Source: a virus
IMG/VR virus record: IMGVR_UViG_3300048924_000630
Coordinates: 1-44,749 of that record
Length of the DNA stretch: 44,749 nucleotides
Reading direction: 5' to 3' (one strand)
In this document: piece by piece, positions 1-44,749 of the stretch
Numbering within the stretch: the stretch's first letter is position 1
Layout: every line of letters begins with the position of its first letter
The notes under the pieces: generated by a model
Database searches by the model: none
What the model was told of the DNA's origin: nothing
The model's input: the letters and a program-made list of their open reading frames with translations, nothing else
Program-made: the position numbers and the translations under genes

Positions 1-471
1 GCGTTTGAAAAGGCCGTCTTGCCCAGCAATGGCAATCCCGGCTTTTATCAGTTATGGGCAAATCTTGCTGATGCACAGCGCTGGATACCCGCGCAGAAAG
101 AGGCGTCGCAGCAGTCTTATCGGCGAGCCATCGAACTGCTTACGCCAGTCCTGGCACGCATGCCGGATGACGCGACACTCAACTCGCGCATGGCGCTGTT
201 TTCGGCCTATGTAGGCGCAACCAAGCAGGCGCTGACGAGTATGGAAAAAGCACTTGCCATCGCCCCTCAATTGCCAGATGTCCAATTCCGAGCGACTTTG
301 ACCCATGAACTAACAGGCAACCGCACCGCAGCCTTGGCAGCACTGCAGGAGGCCGCAAAGCTGGGCTACCCACTCAACCTGATCGAGTCAGCTCCCGATC
401 TGTTGAACCTCAGGCGAGATACTCGCTATCAGCAACTTATGACCAATATGAAAAGAGATCGTAGAACATGA
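1..471 (+). CDS. TPR-repeat protein, C-terminal part (5' end outside window)
   Basis: The reading frame is open from base 1, so the gene starts before the window; 156 C-terminal residues are visible. They form helical pairs typical of tetratricopeptide repeats: an Ala/Leu-rich helix ending ALAIAPQLPDVQFRATL, followed by a second pair around NRTAALAALQEAAKLGYP. TPR units bind partner proteins; such tails occur on transcriptional activators, kinases and cyclases, and the N-terminal domain that would tell which is missing. The next gene overlaps its stop by ATGA, so the two are probably co-transcribed. This is host DNA left of the prophage. The function is not recognisable from this fragment. 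Confidence 0.75.
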   Translation, partial: AFEKAVLPSNGNPGFYQLWANLADAQRWIPAQKEASQQSYRRAIELLTPVLARMPDDATLNSRMALFSAYVGATKQALTSMEKALAIAPQLPDVQFRATLTHELTGNRTAALAALQEAAKLGYPLNLIESAPDLLNLRRDTRYQQLMTNMKRDRRT

Positions 472-1028
472 CGCCTGTCAGCCCCTGGATGAAATTATCC
501 GTACATTTTGATGCAGACCAGATCACAAACCAGCTCGACTATAGCTTTACTTCATGCGACGGGACAGCCGACCCGCGCCATGGTCCATATATGGGTGGGG
601 TGCATTTCCAGAAAGGACAACATGTTTACCTTGATGTCACCTGTTGCGGCTCCAAGGATCGTGGTTTTACCGCCTTCCAGATCATCGATTGCACCATTGT
701 AACCGTGCCGCAACTACTGCAGATCGGCCCGAAAATGCCGACTGTTTATTCCCTCCCGTCGCCATTCCTTCAAGCAATAGGCGCTACCTACAGCCTGCCG
801 CTGGACTTCGAATCGCATTTGCTGCCGCCGGACCCGGCCCAGCCCGACCTGCGGCACATTCGCCAGGAATGGAAACATAACCTGGATGTGGGCCATGCAA
901 ACGGTCGCTGGGAACTGTCGTTTGTCATGACGGTCCGGATCACCCGCAGCGAAGGCGACCAGACCGAATTGCGTGTGTTTTCATTCGATCCAGAAAGCTC
1001 CGTCGGCGACGCCTGGGGCCAGGGTTAA
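468..1028 (+). CDS. Hypothetical protein, co-transcribed with TPR gene
   Basis: A 186-residue soluble-looking protein whose ATG overlaps the stop of the TPR gene (ATGA), implying translational coupling. I do not recognise the family. It has no signal peptide or membrane segment. It contains a CC pair in a strand-rich stretch (LDVTCCGSKDRGFTAFQIID) and ends with several short beta-strand-like segments, so an all-beta fold is likely. Codon use matches the host flank. It lies in the chromosome, upstream of the mutS start. Confidence 0.7.
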   Translation: MTPVSPWMKLSVHFDADQITNQLDYSFTSCDGTADPRHGPYMGGVHFQKGQHVYLDVTCCGSKDRGFTAFQIIDCTIVTVPQLLQIGPKMPTVYSLPSPFLQAIGATYSLPLDFESHLLPPDPAQPDLRHIRQEWKHNLDVGHANGRWELSFVMTVRITRSEGDQTELRVFSFDPESSVGDAWGQG

Positions 1029-1454
1029 TTTCGCTACTCCACGGCTACCTCGCCGCAGGTGACGGATTAAAGCTTCCTGCCAGTTTTCGGGCCAAGACAT
1101 CCTTGGTGTTTGGGCCTGCCTGGCGATAGCGACGCAAACGTATTAAATCTGCAACATCAACGAGGACCGGCACAAAACACCACTATCCCGCCCCTACTTG
1201 CTGTCCCAGCCGGGTGCTGGGCCATTGAACGCACCTTTGCCAGTCAAATGCGTTACTGGTGCGTGCTGCCTGGCAGCGCCACCGGCGCGGCTTTTTCACA
1301 TCCGCACGCAATACGCCGCCCCGCCCGCCGAAAGCGGTAAAATGACGGCCTTGGACTCAAGCCTCGCCTAGCAGCGCGGCCTTGAACGCACACAGCACCA
1401 CCCACAGCCCGGCAGGCATGTCTTTCCTGCCGCCGGACCAACGACAAAGAACAC
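1029..1454. other. Intergenic region upstream of mutS
   Basis: I see no convincing coding frame in these 426 bases. A short GC hairpin (GCGCC at 1276-1280, GGCGC at 1284-1288) followed by five T at 1292-1296 could be a weak terminator for the two upstream genes. TAAAAT at 1338-1343 is a plausible -10 box for mutS, without a good -35 partner. Both assignments are tentative. Confidence 0.35.
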
Positions 1455-1550
1455 ATGACCACCGTCCCAAAAGAAATCAACGCCGCAGCGGCAAAGAAGA
1501 ATTCGGCTGAAAAGCTTACGCCAATGATGCAACAGCGTATTTCCCTATAG
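1455..1550 (+). pseudogene. mutS: mutS 5' end, truncated by prophage insertion
   Basis: The ATG at 1455 opens a frame of 31 codons. The first 27 look like a betaproteobacterial MutS N-terminus: a variable basic/alanine-rich leader followed by EKLTPMMQQ, which matches the conserved TPMMQQ motif at the start of the MutS mismatch-recognition domain. In MutS this motif continues YL(R/G)xK; here it changes to RISL and a stop at 1548-1550. Family match is therefore lost at about base 1535, and the sequence beyond is phage-like. The rest of the gene should lie to the right of the window, in the same orientation. MutS binds mismatches and starts methyl-independent repair with MutL; a split gene would give a mutator unless the phage end supplies a new promoter and start. 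Confidence 0.75.
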
Positions 1551-1569: not shown

Positions 1570-1594
1570 AAAGCTACGCCAAAAGGTACGCTTT
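1570..1594 (-). other. Left integrase arm-type sites (predicted)
   Basis: Read on the minus strand, this stretch contains AAGCGTA (1593-1587) and GCGTAGCTTT (1579-1570), 14 bases apart. The right end carries the same two words, 13 bases apart, on the plus strand at 44717-44739. Paired arm sites in inverted orientation at both ends of an integrated element are what a P4/lambda-type tyrosine integrase needs. They lie 35-60 bp inside the mutS breakpoint. The assignment is inferred from the repeats alone. Confidence 0.55.
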
Positions 1595-1609
1595 CAAATG
1601 GAGAATAAA

Positions 1610-2059
1610 ATGCCTAAAAGAAAGAAAAATCGAGAGGTTAGCAAGCCCGATACTGGCAGTCACATTTCATTTAAGAACAGTAGTGCCAATAACAACGGAC
1701 GCAATGGCGTGTCGATTGGATATGGGATCACTCACATATCATTTGACAGATTTCAAGCCGACGGAAACGGCGGCGATGGTATTGCAATTCAAGGTCGTGA
1801 AAAAGATGCAGTTTTACTCACTTTACGTGAACTGAGCAAGGAACTCGAGAAAACTGACAATACAGACGCACTCAAGATCCTCGTCACGGAATGCGAGCAA
1901 GAGGTGAAGAAGCCAGGGACGGATATGAGTCGCCTCAGCTCCATCATGCAGACAGTCAAATCTGTCTCGGCAAGCGCGATTGAGTTCATACCAAAAATTT
2001 CTACCGCTATAGACTCAGTTATCTCTGCGATTAATTCGTTAAAGGATACACAGCCATAG
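1610..2059 (+). CDS. Hypothetical cargo protein at prophage left end
   Basis: I chose the ATG at 1610 (149 residues) over the one at 1598 because GGAG at 1600-1603 sits at good ribosome-binding distance. The N-terminus is basic (PKRKKNR). Next come two similar glycine/asparagine-rich turns, NNNGRNGVSI and GNGGDGIAIQG, which resemble coils of a right-handed beta-helix. The C-terminal half is helical and ends with an amphipathic stretch around SAIEFIPKISTAIDSVISAI. I do not recognise a family. Base composition is lower in GC than the structural genes, as usual for cargo genes. It lies between the arm sites and a tRNA-His scar and probably has its own promoter. Confidence 0.6.
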   Translation: MPKRKKNREVSKPDTGSHISFKNSSANNNGRNGVSIGYGITHISFDRFQADGNGGDGIAIQGREKDAVLLTLRELSKELEKTDNTDALKILVTECEQEVKKPGTDMSRLSSIMQTVKSVSASAIEFIPKISTAIDSVISAINSLKDTQP

Positions 2060-2075
2060 TAGTTTTATGGCGCTG

Positions 2076-2122
2076 CAGGATTGTGATTCCTGTTGTCGTG
2101 GGTTCGAGCCCCATCAGCCACC
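2076..2122 (+). pseudogene. tRNA-His (GTG) 3' half, integration scar
   Basis: The sequence runs from the anticodon arm to the discriminator base of tRNA-His: stem CAGGA/TCCTG around loop TTGTGAT (anticodon GTG at 2083-2085), variable loop, T arm GTGGG-TTCGAGC-CCCAT, 3' acceptor strand CAGCCAC and C at 2122. The CCA is degenerate (GCA). The 5' acceptor strand and D arm are absent upstream, so it is not a functional tRNA. A break exactly at the anticodon stem is typical of the displaced attachment half left by a tRNA-targeting integrase. Confidence 0.8.
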
Positions 2123-2282: not shown

Positions 2283-3584
2283 CTACTTCGCCAGCACTTT
2301 CGGCAGCTCGGTCCAATTGGTGGTGTATCGGGGCGTCCGATTTTCCGACAACATTGCCCAGCGCCTGACAAAGCCAGCAGATCCAAGGTGTACGGTGTCG
2401 CGTCCGAATCGCTCATTTAACGCATCGAGGGCAGCCATCGCCCGCACTGATTGAGCCCTGTCCCGGCCAGCATCAAACAAGATGCCCTGGCGCTTGGTAT
2501 CCGGCTGCAGATCCATCAGCATGATCCCGGCCTTCTTGTAATTGAAGCCATCGCGAAAAATCATGGCCAGGCCATGCAGTGCGGCGCCGGCCAGGACGCG
2601 GTTATCGGCACTGGGTTCCACCAAGGGGATGGTAATGCCATTGCTGTATTGCTTGTCTTGTTCGCGGAATCGGTTCGTTTGCACAAAAACATGGACAGCC
2701 CCGCACAGGGAGTGCTGGCCGCGCAACTTATCGCCGGCACGCGCGACGTAGGTCGATATCGATTCGCCCAGCTCGGCCGCCGTCATGACCATGGCGCCGA
2801 AGGAGCGCGACGACACAATCTCTTTGCGCGGTGGCGCCACCTCCTCCAGCTCCAGACAGGAAATCCCACGCAGCTCGTTGCACGTGCGCTCGAGCACGAC
2901 GCCGAAATGTGCCCGCATGGTGCTCGGTGGCGCATCTTTCAGGTCTTGCACGGTGCTAATGCCCATCGAGCGCAACTTAGCGCCGATGCGACGGCCCACA
3001 CCCCACACCTCACCGACGTCGATGCGCTGCAGCAGCCAGGCGGTACGCGCCGCCGACATAGTCGTGAAGTCGGCCACGCTATCGAACAGCGGGAATTTCT
3101 TTGCGACATGATTGGCCAGCTTGGCCAAGGTCTTCGACTGGCCTACGCCGACACAAACAGGCAGACTGGTCCACCGGGCCACCTTGGCGCGGATATCTTG
3201 CCCCATGGCTGTCGGCGAAGCCCACAGGCCGCCCAAGCCATTCAGGCTGAGAAACGATTCATCGATGGAGTAGACCTCGACATTGGGACTGTAGGTCCGC
3301 AGGATGGTCATGATGCGGTTGCTCATGTCAGCGTACAAGGTATAGTTTGACGATAAGCCGACTATTCCGTGCTGGCGCGCCAGGTCGCGCATCTGGAACC
3401 AGGGTGCGCCCATCGGCACGCCCAGGGCCTTCACCTCGTTCGACCTGGCCACGGCACAGCCATCATTATTGGACAGCACAACCACCGGGCGGTCGCGCAA
3501 GCGCGGGTTGAAGGCGCGCTCACAGCTGACGTACATATTGTTGACGTCGACAAGCGCAAATATCTGCTTCGTCGGATCGCTCAT
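2283..3584 (-). CDS. umuC: DNA polymerase V catalytic subunit UmuC
   Basis: A 433-residue Y-family translesion polymerase, close to the usual 420-430. The catalytic acidic residues are visible: D13 in LVDVNNMY and D108-E109 in YSIDESF. The N-terminal palm/finger part is followed by an HhH region (GVGRRIGAKLRSMGI) and the little-finger domain; the C-terminus is complete. With two cleaved UmuD subunits it forms Pol V, which copies damaged DNA with low fidelity after RecA activation. Its ATG starts one base after the umuD stop, so the pair is translationally coupled under the LexA box at 4070-4089. In a prophage it is cargo. Confidence 0.97.
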   Translation of the reverse strand: MSDPTKQIFALVDVNNMYVSCERAFNPRLRDRPVVVLSNNDGCAVARSNEVKALGVPMGAPWFQMRDLARQHGIVGLSSNYTLYADMSNRIMTILRTYSPNVEVYSIDESFLSLNGLGGLWASPTAMGQDIRAKVARWTSLPVCVGVGQSKTLAKLANHVAKKFPLFDSVADFTTMSAARTAWLLQRIDVGEVWGVGRRIGAKLRSMGISTVQDLKDAPPSTMRAHFGVVLERTCNELRGISCLELEEVAPPRKEIVSSRSFGAMVMTAAELGESISTYVARAGDKLRGQHSLCGAVHVFVQTNRFREQDKQYSNGITIPLVEPSADNRVLAGAALHGLAMIFRDGFNYKKAGIMLMDLQPDTKRQGILFDAGRDRAQSVRAMAALDALNERFGRDTVHLGSAGFVRRWAMLSENRTPRYTTNWTELPKVLAK

Positions 3585-3585
3585 A

Positions 3586-4059
3586 TCACACCCGCAGCTT
3601 GCGTACGACGCCCGTCACCACACCCCAAATTTGCAGTTCACTACCCTCGGCCAGGCAGATCGCCTTGTACGCCGGATTGTCCGGGCGCAGCTCTACCCTA
3701 CCCCGCTGGCAATAAAGGCGCTTGAGGGTATACTCGGCATCGATGACGGCAATGACAATGTGACCATGCAAAGGCGCGACGGAGCGGTCGACCACCACCT
3801 TGTCGCCATCCAGTATGCCTGCGTCGCGCATCGAGTCGCCCTCGACGGTGAAAAAGAACGAGGCGGCCTTGTGCTGCACCAGCAGCGCGTTCAGGTCCAG
3901 GCCATCTTCGGTATAGTCGGCAGCCGGCGACGGAAATCCGGCGGATATCCGATGGGAAATTTCCGGCCGCGCACTGGGGGTTGGGTACTGCGCAAGCGGC
4001 AATGGCACCTGCGATACACCGGGCTGGCTAGGTTGAAGTATTAATAAGGTTGCATTCAT
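3586..4059 (-). CDS. umuD: UmuD, Pol V self-cleaving subunit
   Basis: A 157-residue S24 peptidase-fold protein. The self-cleavage site is A40-G41 in SAGFPSPAADY. The catalytic dyad is S76 (EGDSM) and K113 (YTLKRL), with the same 37-residue spacing as E. coli UmuD S60/K97. RecA filaments stimulate the cleavage, giving UmuD' for Pol V. The N-terminal arm is about 16 residues longer than in E. coli. The start codon lies only 10 bases from the LexA box, and no good Shine-Dalgarno sequence is visible. Confidence 0.96.
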   Translation of the reverse strand: MNATLLILQPSQPGVSQVPLPLAQYPTPSARPEISHRISAGFPSPAADYTEDGLDLNALLVQHKAASFFFTVEGDSMRDAGILDGDKVVVDRSVAPLHGHIVIAVIDAEYTLKRLYCQRGRVELRPDNPAYKAICLAEGSELQIWGVVTGVVRKLRV

Positions 4060-4069
4060 GGCTGGCTAA

Positions 4070-4089
4070 TACTGTGTTTTTATACAGTA
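4070..4089 (-). promoter_or_regulatory. LexA (SOS) box of umuDC
   Basis: TACTGTGTTTTTATACAGTA fits the gammaproteobacterial/betaproteobacterial LexA consensus CTG-N10-CAG with both outer TA pairs. It lies directly upstream of umuD and overlaps the likely -10 region (TATACT on the minus strand). DNA damage should therefore derepress umuDC through host LexA. Confidence 0.92.
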
Positions 4090-42012: not shown

Positions 42013-43302
42013 TCAGACAACGGGACCTATCAAGGCTGCTTGGAAAATCAACGTATCAAGTAATTTTAGCAACTTAGATACATCATAAACACCTTTTAAT
42101 AAATAATCGTCGGACTGCTCATAAAAATTTTTGGAGTAGGTCTCCTTAAAATCTAAGACTCCATGCCATGCATTTATGTCTTTTTTGAAGTTGCTCCAAG
42201 TGACCTGCGCTGGGCCATATTGAGTCAATCGGAGGTCGAGGTAACATTCAATTGCGGCGGCTCGGCCGTTAATATCAGAAAAGCCAACTCCTTCCGGACC
42301 GAGAGTTGAAAATCGCTCAAATTCTTCAAGATCAGGTAACAACATCGCTCGCATGTTCGTGGGGAGCTTCAATTTTTCTATTTTACGAAACGCATCAACA
42401 CCCTCTGCGTCATTGTCGAAAATAAATAAAACCTGATTGAGTACCTCAATTCGCAAAAGTCCTTCTGCGAATTTTACGAGATTGCCGGTTCCCCAAAAAT
42501 GATGTCGTTCGTCAGCATTCACGAAATTAAAATAATCTGCCACATCTGACCGCAGAATATCAAGAGAGCGCCGAATGATGCGTGCGTCCGAGGCGCCCTC
42601 AGTAGCGAGCAGAATTTTTTGATTTTTCCTCGCACCAGGCTTAAATTCCTCACGTTGAACCCATCCGGCGTGTACTATTGGACCGAACTCCCATGTCACC
42701 TCAATTTCAGCATTCTCCGCATTTAGGGCAAAGACCTGAAGCATCGACTCCGCACTCAAAATGCAAATTCTCGAAGAAATGAAACTAGTTTCAGACCAAT
42801 ACAAATCATTATCGGTGGAGGGAATACGATTAAATACATCAATATCACTTGCAAATCGCCCTTGCGAAACCCTGCCCTGGCTTTCCGCCTCACTGTCGAT
42901 ATAATCGCTATTCAAATCGCCCAGCGGATAGCGGCAGGCCAACTTACAAAACTCCTCAAATGTGAGATATTCTTCTTTACCTCCTTCCACATCAACATAG
43001 CTTGCCACTTCAACCGCGTATTCAACCAACGCTTGATACTCGGCGCGTGCAGCTTCGAGTGTAAAGCCTAGTATCTCAAGACGAGGCAAGACGCGTGAAA
43101 GCTTTCTTGCAAAAAGCTCTTCTGCTTCGGCAAGTTCATTTTCCTCTTCTGGATGTTCTTCGTAATAATCGTAATCTATTGCTTCCGTTTTACGGCGAAA
43201 AAGATCACATTCCTGAAACAAGAACCCGTAATCTCGACCCATAAAGTTTTTGGCATAAGATAGAGCTACGTTACCGATGCGGAGTTCTATGGATGTTCCC
43301 AT
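42013..43302 (-). CDS. HEPN/Toprim-type protein, probable anti-phage defence
   Basis: A 429-residue protein. The N-terminus (MGTSIELRIGNVALSYAKNF, then FQECDLFRRK) matches the start of HEPN_Toprim_N proteins. The C-terminal part has a Toprim/OLD-like core: E235 and D239 in LATEGASDARII, then HHFWGTGNLVKFAEGL, and D296/D298 in LFIFDNDAEG. Toprim nucleases of this kind occur in abortive-infection systems. GC content is clearly lower than in the phage core and it sits alone by the integrase, as typical for cargo. No clear ribosome-binding site precedes the ATG. No partner gene is seen. The defence role is inferred. Confidence 0.75.
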   Translation of the reverse strand: MGTSIELRIGNVALSYAKNFMGRDYGFLFQECDLFRRKTEAIDYDYYEEHPEEENELAEAEELFARKLSRVLPRLEILGFTLEAARAEYQALVEYAVEVASYVDVEGGKEEYLTFEEFCKLACRYPLGDLNSDYIDSEAESQGRVSQGRFASDIDVFNRIPSTDNDLYWSETSFISSRICILSAESMLQVFALNAENAEIEVTWEFGPIVHAGWVQREEFKPGARKNQKILLATEGASDARIIRRSLDILRSDVADYFNFVNADERHHFWGTGNLVKFAEGLLRIEVLNQVLFIFDNDAEGVDAFRKIEKLKLPTNMRAMLLPDLEEFERFSTLGPEGVGFSDINGRAAAIECYLDLRLTQYGPAQVTWSNFKKDINAWHGVLDFKETYSKNFYEQSDDYLLKGVYDVSKLLKLLDTLIFQAALIGPVV

Positions 43303-43426: not shown

Positions 43427-44704
43427 TCACAAAGCTTCTAGGTGCGCACTAAGCCGGCCCAGCCACTCTCTGCGCTCTTTGTCGTACGCGTGCCTGTTAT
43501 AGACGCCTATGACACCCTTCTTCATGTGTCCCAGCACCGCCTCTGCAACCTCTTCCGTGCACCCAAGTATTGCTAACTGCGTGCGGCAGCTGCGTCGCAG
43601 ATCGTGCGGCGCCCAGTTCGTGACAGGCAGTCGTGGTCGATAGTCTTCCGGTTTCGTTTCGCTGTACGGCATATGCATCCAAACCGCACAACCCACCGAT
43701 TTTTGCTCCATGTACCCCACCTTTCCGTACGACTCAAAAAGGTACTTTCCTTTCACCGCCCCCATGCGACGACGTACCACAACCTCCGCCCTGCCGACCA
43801 GCGGAACGCGCAGATCTGTAGCATGCTCACGCCATGAATTCTTTGTCTTCGCCTTTGGAATCGTCCACCAGAGCCCGTCAGCCTCCTCACTGATTTCGGT
43901 CACCTCCATGGCCATAATTTCCGAGCCGCGCGTGCAAGTCCACAAGTACAGCGTCAACGCATCACACACCGCCTTCGAAAAATTTGGCAACCACTTGATC
44001 AAGGTCGCCAGCTCTTCGGCGCTCAACACACGCTTGACGGGCCCGGCCTGGACGCCTTGCACCACTCGCCCCTTGCTTCGCAACTTGCCACGCATTATCA
44101 GGCGCCACCAGTTTGGCACGGTATCTGGCAGGCGCCCTGCATCGTGGACGTAGTCCCAAGCAGAACCAAGCTCAGCTCGTAGCTTGGCGGCCTGGACGGG
44201 AATATGCGCAAAGCTCTCTATCAGGTCGAACGCATCGGAGCGAGAAACCTCTGCGGCGGGCATGCCACCAAATTCGCCCAGCATTGTTTCAAACATGCGC
44301 GTCACTTCCTTGACGCCCTTTTCGCCACGATTGCGCGATAAGTGGCCAGCCACATACATGTCCGCTACGCGCCGCACCGTCAGCAACGCTTTTGCCTTGC
44401 GTTCACGCTCTGCTTCCGTGGCTTGGCGCGACTGCGCTCGCACCTCGCGTTTATCGACAGCAAGGTCGATGCCGGCACTGCGCGCGCCACGCAGGCGCTC
44501 CCACTCAACCGTCGCCGCCGCTAGCGAGATCGCTGGCCACTCGCCAATCTTGGTTTGCCGCATGCGCCCATCAAGCGGGCTTTTATAGCGATATATCCAC
44601 GATCTCTTCGACTTTGTAGCCTCAAGTCGCAGCCCTGGGCAGTCGGAAATGGTAAAGTGTTGGCCAGCCGCGAGCAGCTTTGCCGCTCTTGCATCGAATT
44701 GCAT
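43427..44704 (-). CDS. int: Tyrosine-type integrase (P4-like)
   Basis: A 425-residue site-specific recombinase. The N-terminal arm-binding domain (FTISDCPGLRLEATKSK, IYRYKSPLDGRMRQTKIG) is followed by a core-binding helical part and the catalytic domain. R259 (CTRGSE), H367/R370 (PHDLRRS), H393 (LGHM) and nucleophile Y402 (VYNRH) are all present. I chose ATG 44704 because GGGGTGAG directly precedes it; an ATG at 44749 would read through the arm sites. It would integrate the phage into mutS and, with AlpA, excise it. Confidence 0.96.
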   Translation of the reverse strand: MQFDARAAKLLAAGQHFTISDCPGLRLEATKSKRSWIYRYKSPLDGRMRQTKIGEWPAISLAAATVEWERLRGARSAGIDLAVDKREVRAQSRQATEAERERKAKALLTVRRVADMYVAGHLSRNRGEKGVKEVTRMFETMLGEFGGMPAAEVSRSDAFDLIESFAHIPVQAAKLRAELGSAWDYVHDAGRLPDTVPNWWRLIMRGKLRSKGRVVQGVQAGPVKRVLSAEELATLIKWLPNFSKAVCDALTLYLWTCTRGSEIMAMEVTEISEEADGLWWTIPKAKTKNSWREHATDLRVPLVGRAEVVVRRRMGAVKGKYLFESYGKVGYMEQKSVGCAVWMHMPYSETKPEDYRPRLPVTNWAPHDLRRSCRTQLAILGCTEEVAEAVLGHMKKGVIGVYNRHAYDKERREWLGRLSAHLEAL

Positions 44705-44716
44705 ACTCACCCCAAT

Positions 44717-44740
44717 AAGCGTAGGTCCAGCGTAGCTTTT
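44717..44740 (+). other. Right integrase arm-type sites (predicted)
   Basis: AAGCGTA (44717-44723) and GCGTAGCTTT (44730-44739) repeat the words found in inverted orientation at 1570-1593. They overlap the int promoter region, so integrase could repress its own gene. The core site and the rest of mutS should follow just outside the window. Confidence 0.55.
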
Positions 44741-44749
44741 ATCCAGCAT

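Follow-up and report, generated by a model that had tools for sequence, protein, structure and literature searches.

Recombination specific to mutS was first reported in 2008 for GI8c, a prophage of B. pseudomallei MSHR305 with a 15-bp direct repeat, ACGCCGATGATGCAG (PMC2612704). Across hundreds of Beta- and Gammaproteobacteria, Chu et al. (2017) found elements inserted in the HTPMMQQ motif of mutS, one of them a prophage in Burkholderia multivorans CF2; these elements bring a promoter and a start codon with them (PMC5296598). Three strains showed scarless excision; V. splendidus 12B01 alone kept a 2-bp deletion, and loss of the element there gave a mutator (PMC5296598). The SXT ICE at prfC and the islands at dusA work alike (PMC8409611). 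The SpyCI elements of Streptococcus pyogenes are prophage-like and occupy the 5′ end of mutL, also a mismatch-repair gene, and they block mutL transcription to produce a growth-phase-dependent mutator (PMC3430984).

We analyzed a virus record of 44,749 bases (here, the window), the left end of which is host DNA. Based on PHROG matches to tail sheath, baseplate wedge and hub, portal, and terminase proteins, the phage is of the contractile-tailed myovirus type, and the additional presence of an integrase places it among the myovirus-type temperate phages. Prophages at exactly this mutS site are already known from the 2008 and 2017 reports, and the window adds one more. Its phage resembles GI8c in being a prophage at mutS with a direct repeat, although the passages that describe GI8c do not take up a rebuilding of the gene (PMC2612704), and differs from the elements of Chu et al. 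(PMC5296598) in being a different phage in a Janthinobacterium-type host. Unlike SXT and the dusA islands, which use other target genes and are conjugative or mobilizable, it is a myovirus prophage. We conclude that this prophage very probably swaps the 5′ end of mutS, with a phage arm that rebuilds the gene in frame and an excision that returns the native gene.

A previous sequence-only reading had proposed that a prophage splits mutS after codon 27, leaving a lysogen with broken mismatch repair whose mutation rate is switched back when the phage excises. The features at the left junction are as follows.

1455 to 1535, plus strand: native 5′ end of host mutS, now orphaned, with the start codon and 27 codons as far as TPMMQQ; based on translation and on a 92%-identical relative (G025) with an intact mutS.
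1524 to 1534, plus strand: att core ATGATGCARCA, the prophage attL; the core is common to several att sites, and host homology stops at 1534.
1536 to 1550, plus strand: phage-side codons RISL and a stop, closing the orphaned mutS frame; based on translation, with a like arrangement in relatives.
1570 to 1594, plus strand: AAAGCTACGCCAAAAGGTACGC, probably arm-type sites for the integrase; the sequence recurs at the distal ends of G001, G002, and G016 and, inverted, at the window's right end.

By translation, positions 1455 to 1535 encode the first 27 residues of a MutS of Janthinobacterium type, broken off at TPMMQQ, and the frame closes at 1550, inside phage DNA. We compared window positions 468 to 1541 by BLAST with 40 genomes from the genus of Janthinobacterium sp. 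PC23-8. A single relative matched; it is 92% identical over the whole query up to window base 1534 and shows no similarity beyond it, a match far above chance. This relative, G025, is prophage-free, and its mutS continues unbroken past the equivalent of 1534 as an open frame with 526 amino acids visible. Because homology ends at 1534 and the relative continues as an intact mutS, we assign window positions 1 to 1534 to the host and the DNA that follows to the phage. The proposed MutS N-terminus and its run into phage DNA and a stop are confirmed, and the prophage is inserted site-specifically in mutS. Since the core corresponds to codons 24 to 27 of mutS and the precise crossover cannot be assigned within it, the proposed break after codon 27 holds within the limits of the core. 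As in other mutS elements, host mutS is cut in the HTPMMQQ motif, and an orphaned host start lies at one end of the element.

The same core occurs in the attB of G025, the attR of two relatives (L001 and L047), the attP of L010, and the attL of L258. The layout after the core is similar in L258 and in the L010 attP, with other codons and then a stop. Directly 3′ of the orphaned mutS start, an open reading frame of 153 amino acids (1598 to 2059, plus strand) has no Pfam match; given this position, it may be expressed in the lysogen from the captured native promoter of mutS. The left end of the phage also carries a decayed, tRNA-like stretch (2059 to 2122, plus strand) that resembles the 3′ part of tRNA-His. 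It scores 23 bits against the Rfam tRNA model, below the 29-bit cut-off, and ARAGORN calls no tRNA there. As host homology already ends at 1534, this stretch was rejected as the attachment site of the prophage; it is perhaps the fossil of an older tRNA attachment site that preceded an integrase swap.

At the opposite end of the window from the orphaned mutS start, two further features were identified.

43427 to 44704, minus strand: tyrosine integrase of the mutS-targeting group, with Pfam arm-binding and Phage_integrase domains; in relatives it lies 220 to 250 nt from mutS.
44718 to 44749, minus strand: first stretch of the right arm of the phage, which contains an arm-type site and differs little from the L001 arm.

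Only 45 nt separate the integrase start codon from the end of the window, and the second junction is beyond that end. A search of the window for the duplicated core that the sequence-only reading had anticipated found no second att copy, because the right end stops before attR; the core is present in the attR and attP of relatives and in the attB of G025. The final bases of the window (reverse complement, ATAAAAGCTACGCTGGACCTACGCTTATTGGGGTGAGTATGCAATTCGATGC) are nearly those of the L001 right arm (ATAAAAGCTACGCTGAACCTACGCTTAATGAGGTGAGAATGCAATTCGATGC); in L001 the arm runs on for ∼200 nt to the mutS core, where mutS is rebuilt. By this comparison, the rest of mutS should lie to the right of 44,749 in plus orientation, as had been suggested, and its replacement start would be expected ∼200 nt past the window end. 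The window and most of the relatives compared have motifs of the form AAG(C/T)TACGC in each of their two arms, with none found in L047; these motifs are probably arm-type integrase sites. Adjoining the integrase, a 429-amino-acid protein with a HEPN/Toprim N-terminal domain (42013 to 43302, minus strand) is a possible defense gene, for which no match was found among PADLOC defense systems.

An integrase search recovered 42 viral loci and 23 genome loci. Elements of the kind described by Chu et al. are expected to carry a tyrosine integrase no more than about 300 bp away from the remainder of mutS. The non-duplicate relatives (n = 28; integrases 49 to 91% identical) comprised 27 mutS junctions and one joined attP. 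The interval between the integrase start and mutS is 220 to 250 nt in 28/28, and mutS, where visible, points away from the integrase. When the mutS frame was followed backwards into the phage, a start codon was encountered before a stop in 28/28, compared with 4/28 and 8/28 for the other two frames. Because the test accepts GTG and TTG and the relatives share ancestry, and so are not fully independent, we regard this result as strong without attaching a formal probability to it. The in-frame start is also found in two relatives whose integrases are 90 to 91% identical to that of the window. In every one of the 28, then, the phage DNA that separates the integrase from mutS (∼220 to 250 nt) supplies an in-frame start and a new N-terminus ahead of TPMMQQ that is unlike the native one (for example, MNMQLNQELANIQKSKL, MNTLSNQEVTSSDKTKH, and MPLDQRLTDNGKSKI). 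Where the downstream mutS is complete, it extends for 850 to 889 codons.

These observations bear directly on the proposal that the prophage breaks mutS, makes the lysogen a mutator, and restores repair on excision. The native frame is indeed cut and ended by a phage stop, and SpyCI elements act as such an on/off switch at mutL (PMC3430984). However, the in-frame start is kept in all 28 relatives, and a MutS_I search of 15 host genomes recovered one gene in each, which was the rebuilt mutS with no internal stop (15/15). Published tests of related elements likewise found mutS in frame while the element was integrated (PMC5296598). The switch is thus very unlikely. Based on the conserved start and the sole unbroken MutS gene, mutS is most likely functional in the lysogen, which is probably not a mutator. 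SpyCI abolishes mutL expression, whereas the relatives of the window's phage have mutS rebuilt; judged from sequence, SpyCI is probably not the right model for this prophage. Cutting of mutS by a prophage does not by itself imply a mutator, since such phages carry a spare start for the gene that they target, and a tempting inference is thereby corrected.

The swap of the mutS 5′ end that we favor would proceed as follows. The tyrosine integrase would recombine the attP core ATGATGCARCA with the identical core near the 5′ end of host mutS, within the TPMMQQ codons. Integration would leave the native promoter, start codon, and first ∼27 codons at the left end, running into a phage stop, while at the right end the remainder of mutS would be joined in frame to a start codon and N-terminal codons that attP contributes together with a new 5′ region. 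For the window itself, this right junction and its frame are predicted from the relatives. MutS would be made even so, with an altered, non-conserved N-terminus and an altered upstream region. Since the exchanged part precedes the mismatch-binding stretch FYRMGDFYE, which remains host encoded, MutS function should be kept according to established structure-function relationships, and we infer that the rebuilt protein works. Excision would give the native mutS again.

Both ends of such an exchange are visible among the relatives. In three Massilia and Duganella genomes, the distal end, 38 to 41 kb away, consists of the native mutS start and core followed by phage DNA. The L010 contig is a joined attP, reading ...QEVANIPQGKH/TPMMQQGFHPMRIAS followed by a stop. 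In L258, the record with the closest integrase (94% identity), the end away from the integrase shows the same orphaned mutS start followed by a stop, but the adjoining genes are different.

The excised state also fits this swap. Joining the left flank of the window to the downstream DNA of G025 yields an unbroken MutS N-terminus, the predicted empty site, in frame, in line with the expectation that precise excision should return the native gene. Excision that leaves a frameshift, so that loss of the prophage rather than its presence makes the mutator, is documented for one Vibrio element in the same motif, that of V. splendidus 12B01 (PMC5296598). Here, the core shows no change of length across attB, attL, attR, and attP, the reconstructed frame is intact, and the other tested members, the Burkholderia prophage included, excise without a scar (PMC5296598). 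Imprecise excision of this kind is extremely unlikely for the window's phage, and a 12B01-like frameshift is not predicted.

A subtler effect would be that mutS is rebuilt, yet the phage arm shifts its expression enough to change the mutation rate. Integration parts the native promoter from the gene, and the new upstream region is ∼230 nt common to the divergent integrase gene; the promoter of the rebuilt mutS would presumably sit in this arm. Chu et al. raised the same possibility (PMC5296598), and at dusA an element-supplied promoter lowers expression (PMC8409611). A promoter consensus scan of the arm, however, returned nothing convincing and no recognizable regulated promoter. We consider such modulation possible but unlikely; it is compatible with the swap of the 5′ end, and both can hold. 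The question of altered MutS levels gains slightly in interest from a cargo operon of the phage.

2283 to 4087, minus strand: umuDC-like error-prone polymerase V operon, phage cargo; NCBIfam UmuC and a UmuD-type subunit, both above cut-off.

A LexA-box-like site, CTGTGTTTTTATACAG (4072 to 4087), lies immediately upstream of umuD. If the arm placed mutS under phage, perhaps damage-responsive, control, then with this SOS-boxed operon the prophage would set the mutation rate of its lysogen from both sides, through repair and through error-prone synthesis, but we regard this as highly doubtful. No umuDC was found in the integrase relatives examined, most of whose loci span only part of the phage, and within that coverage it is not a trait common to the integrase group.

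The target of this integrase group is not uniform. In five relatives with integrases 45 to 54% identical (L054, L057, L058, L062, and L063), there is no mutS beside the integrase in the flanking DNA examined. The isolated Acidovorax myovirus Aval (PMC11619371) has an integrase 56% identical to that of the window and, from its sequence, a mutS-type attP at its genome end (...SEHTPMMH followed by a stop). Burkholderia phage KS9, with an integrase 58% identical, lacks a mutS core at its integrase end, unlike the mutS-targeting group, and its integration has been reported at the 3′ end of the GTP cyclohydrolase II gene (PMC8310193). The idea that every relative of this integrase targets mutS was accordingly discarded. 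Similarity at the 56 to 58% level does not fix the target, as KS9 lacks the core and integrates elsewhere, and the relatives at 45 to 58% identity without an adjoining mutS indicate that the target has switched within the group.

The sequence-only reading had known of no such case for a betaproteobacterial myovirus. Betaproteobacterial prophages at mutS are nevertheless on record, namely, B. pseudomallei GI8c (PMC2612704) and the B. multivorans CF2 prophage (PMC5296598), and phage Aval, a myovirus (PMC11619371), has the mutS-type attP noted above. To the published site, the present comparison adds lysogens of Janthinobacterium, Massilia, Duganella, Variovorax, and Accumulibacter, together with a contig that carries a joined attP and with Aval as an isolated phage.

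In Janthinobacterium sp. PC23-8 (L047; G005:C4:875557-897105), the upstream neighbor of mutS, as known from the host DNA of the window, is ∼21 kb from the rebuilt mutS, so this element is shorter than the window's phage; a pattern search for its distal att site found none. Outside this integrase group, many of the viral contigs recovered with the TPMMQQ pattern (L067 to L184) also carry mutS, often complete at the contig edge.
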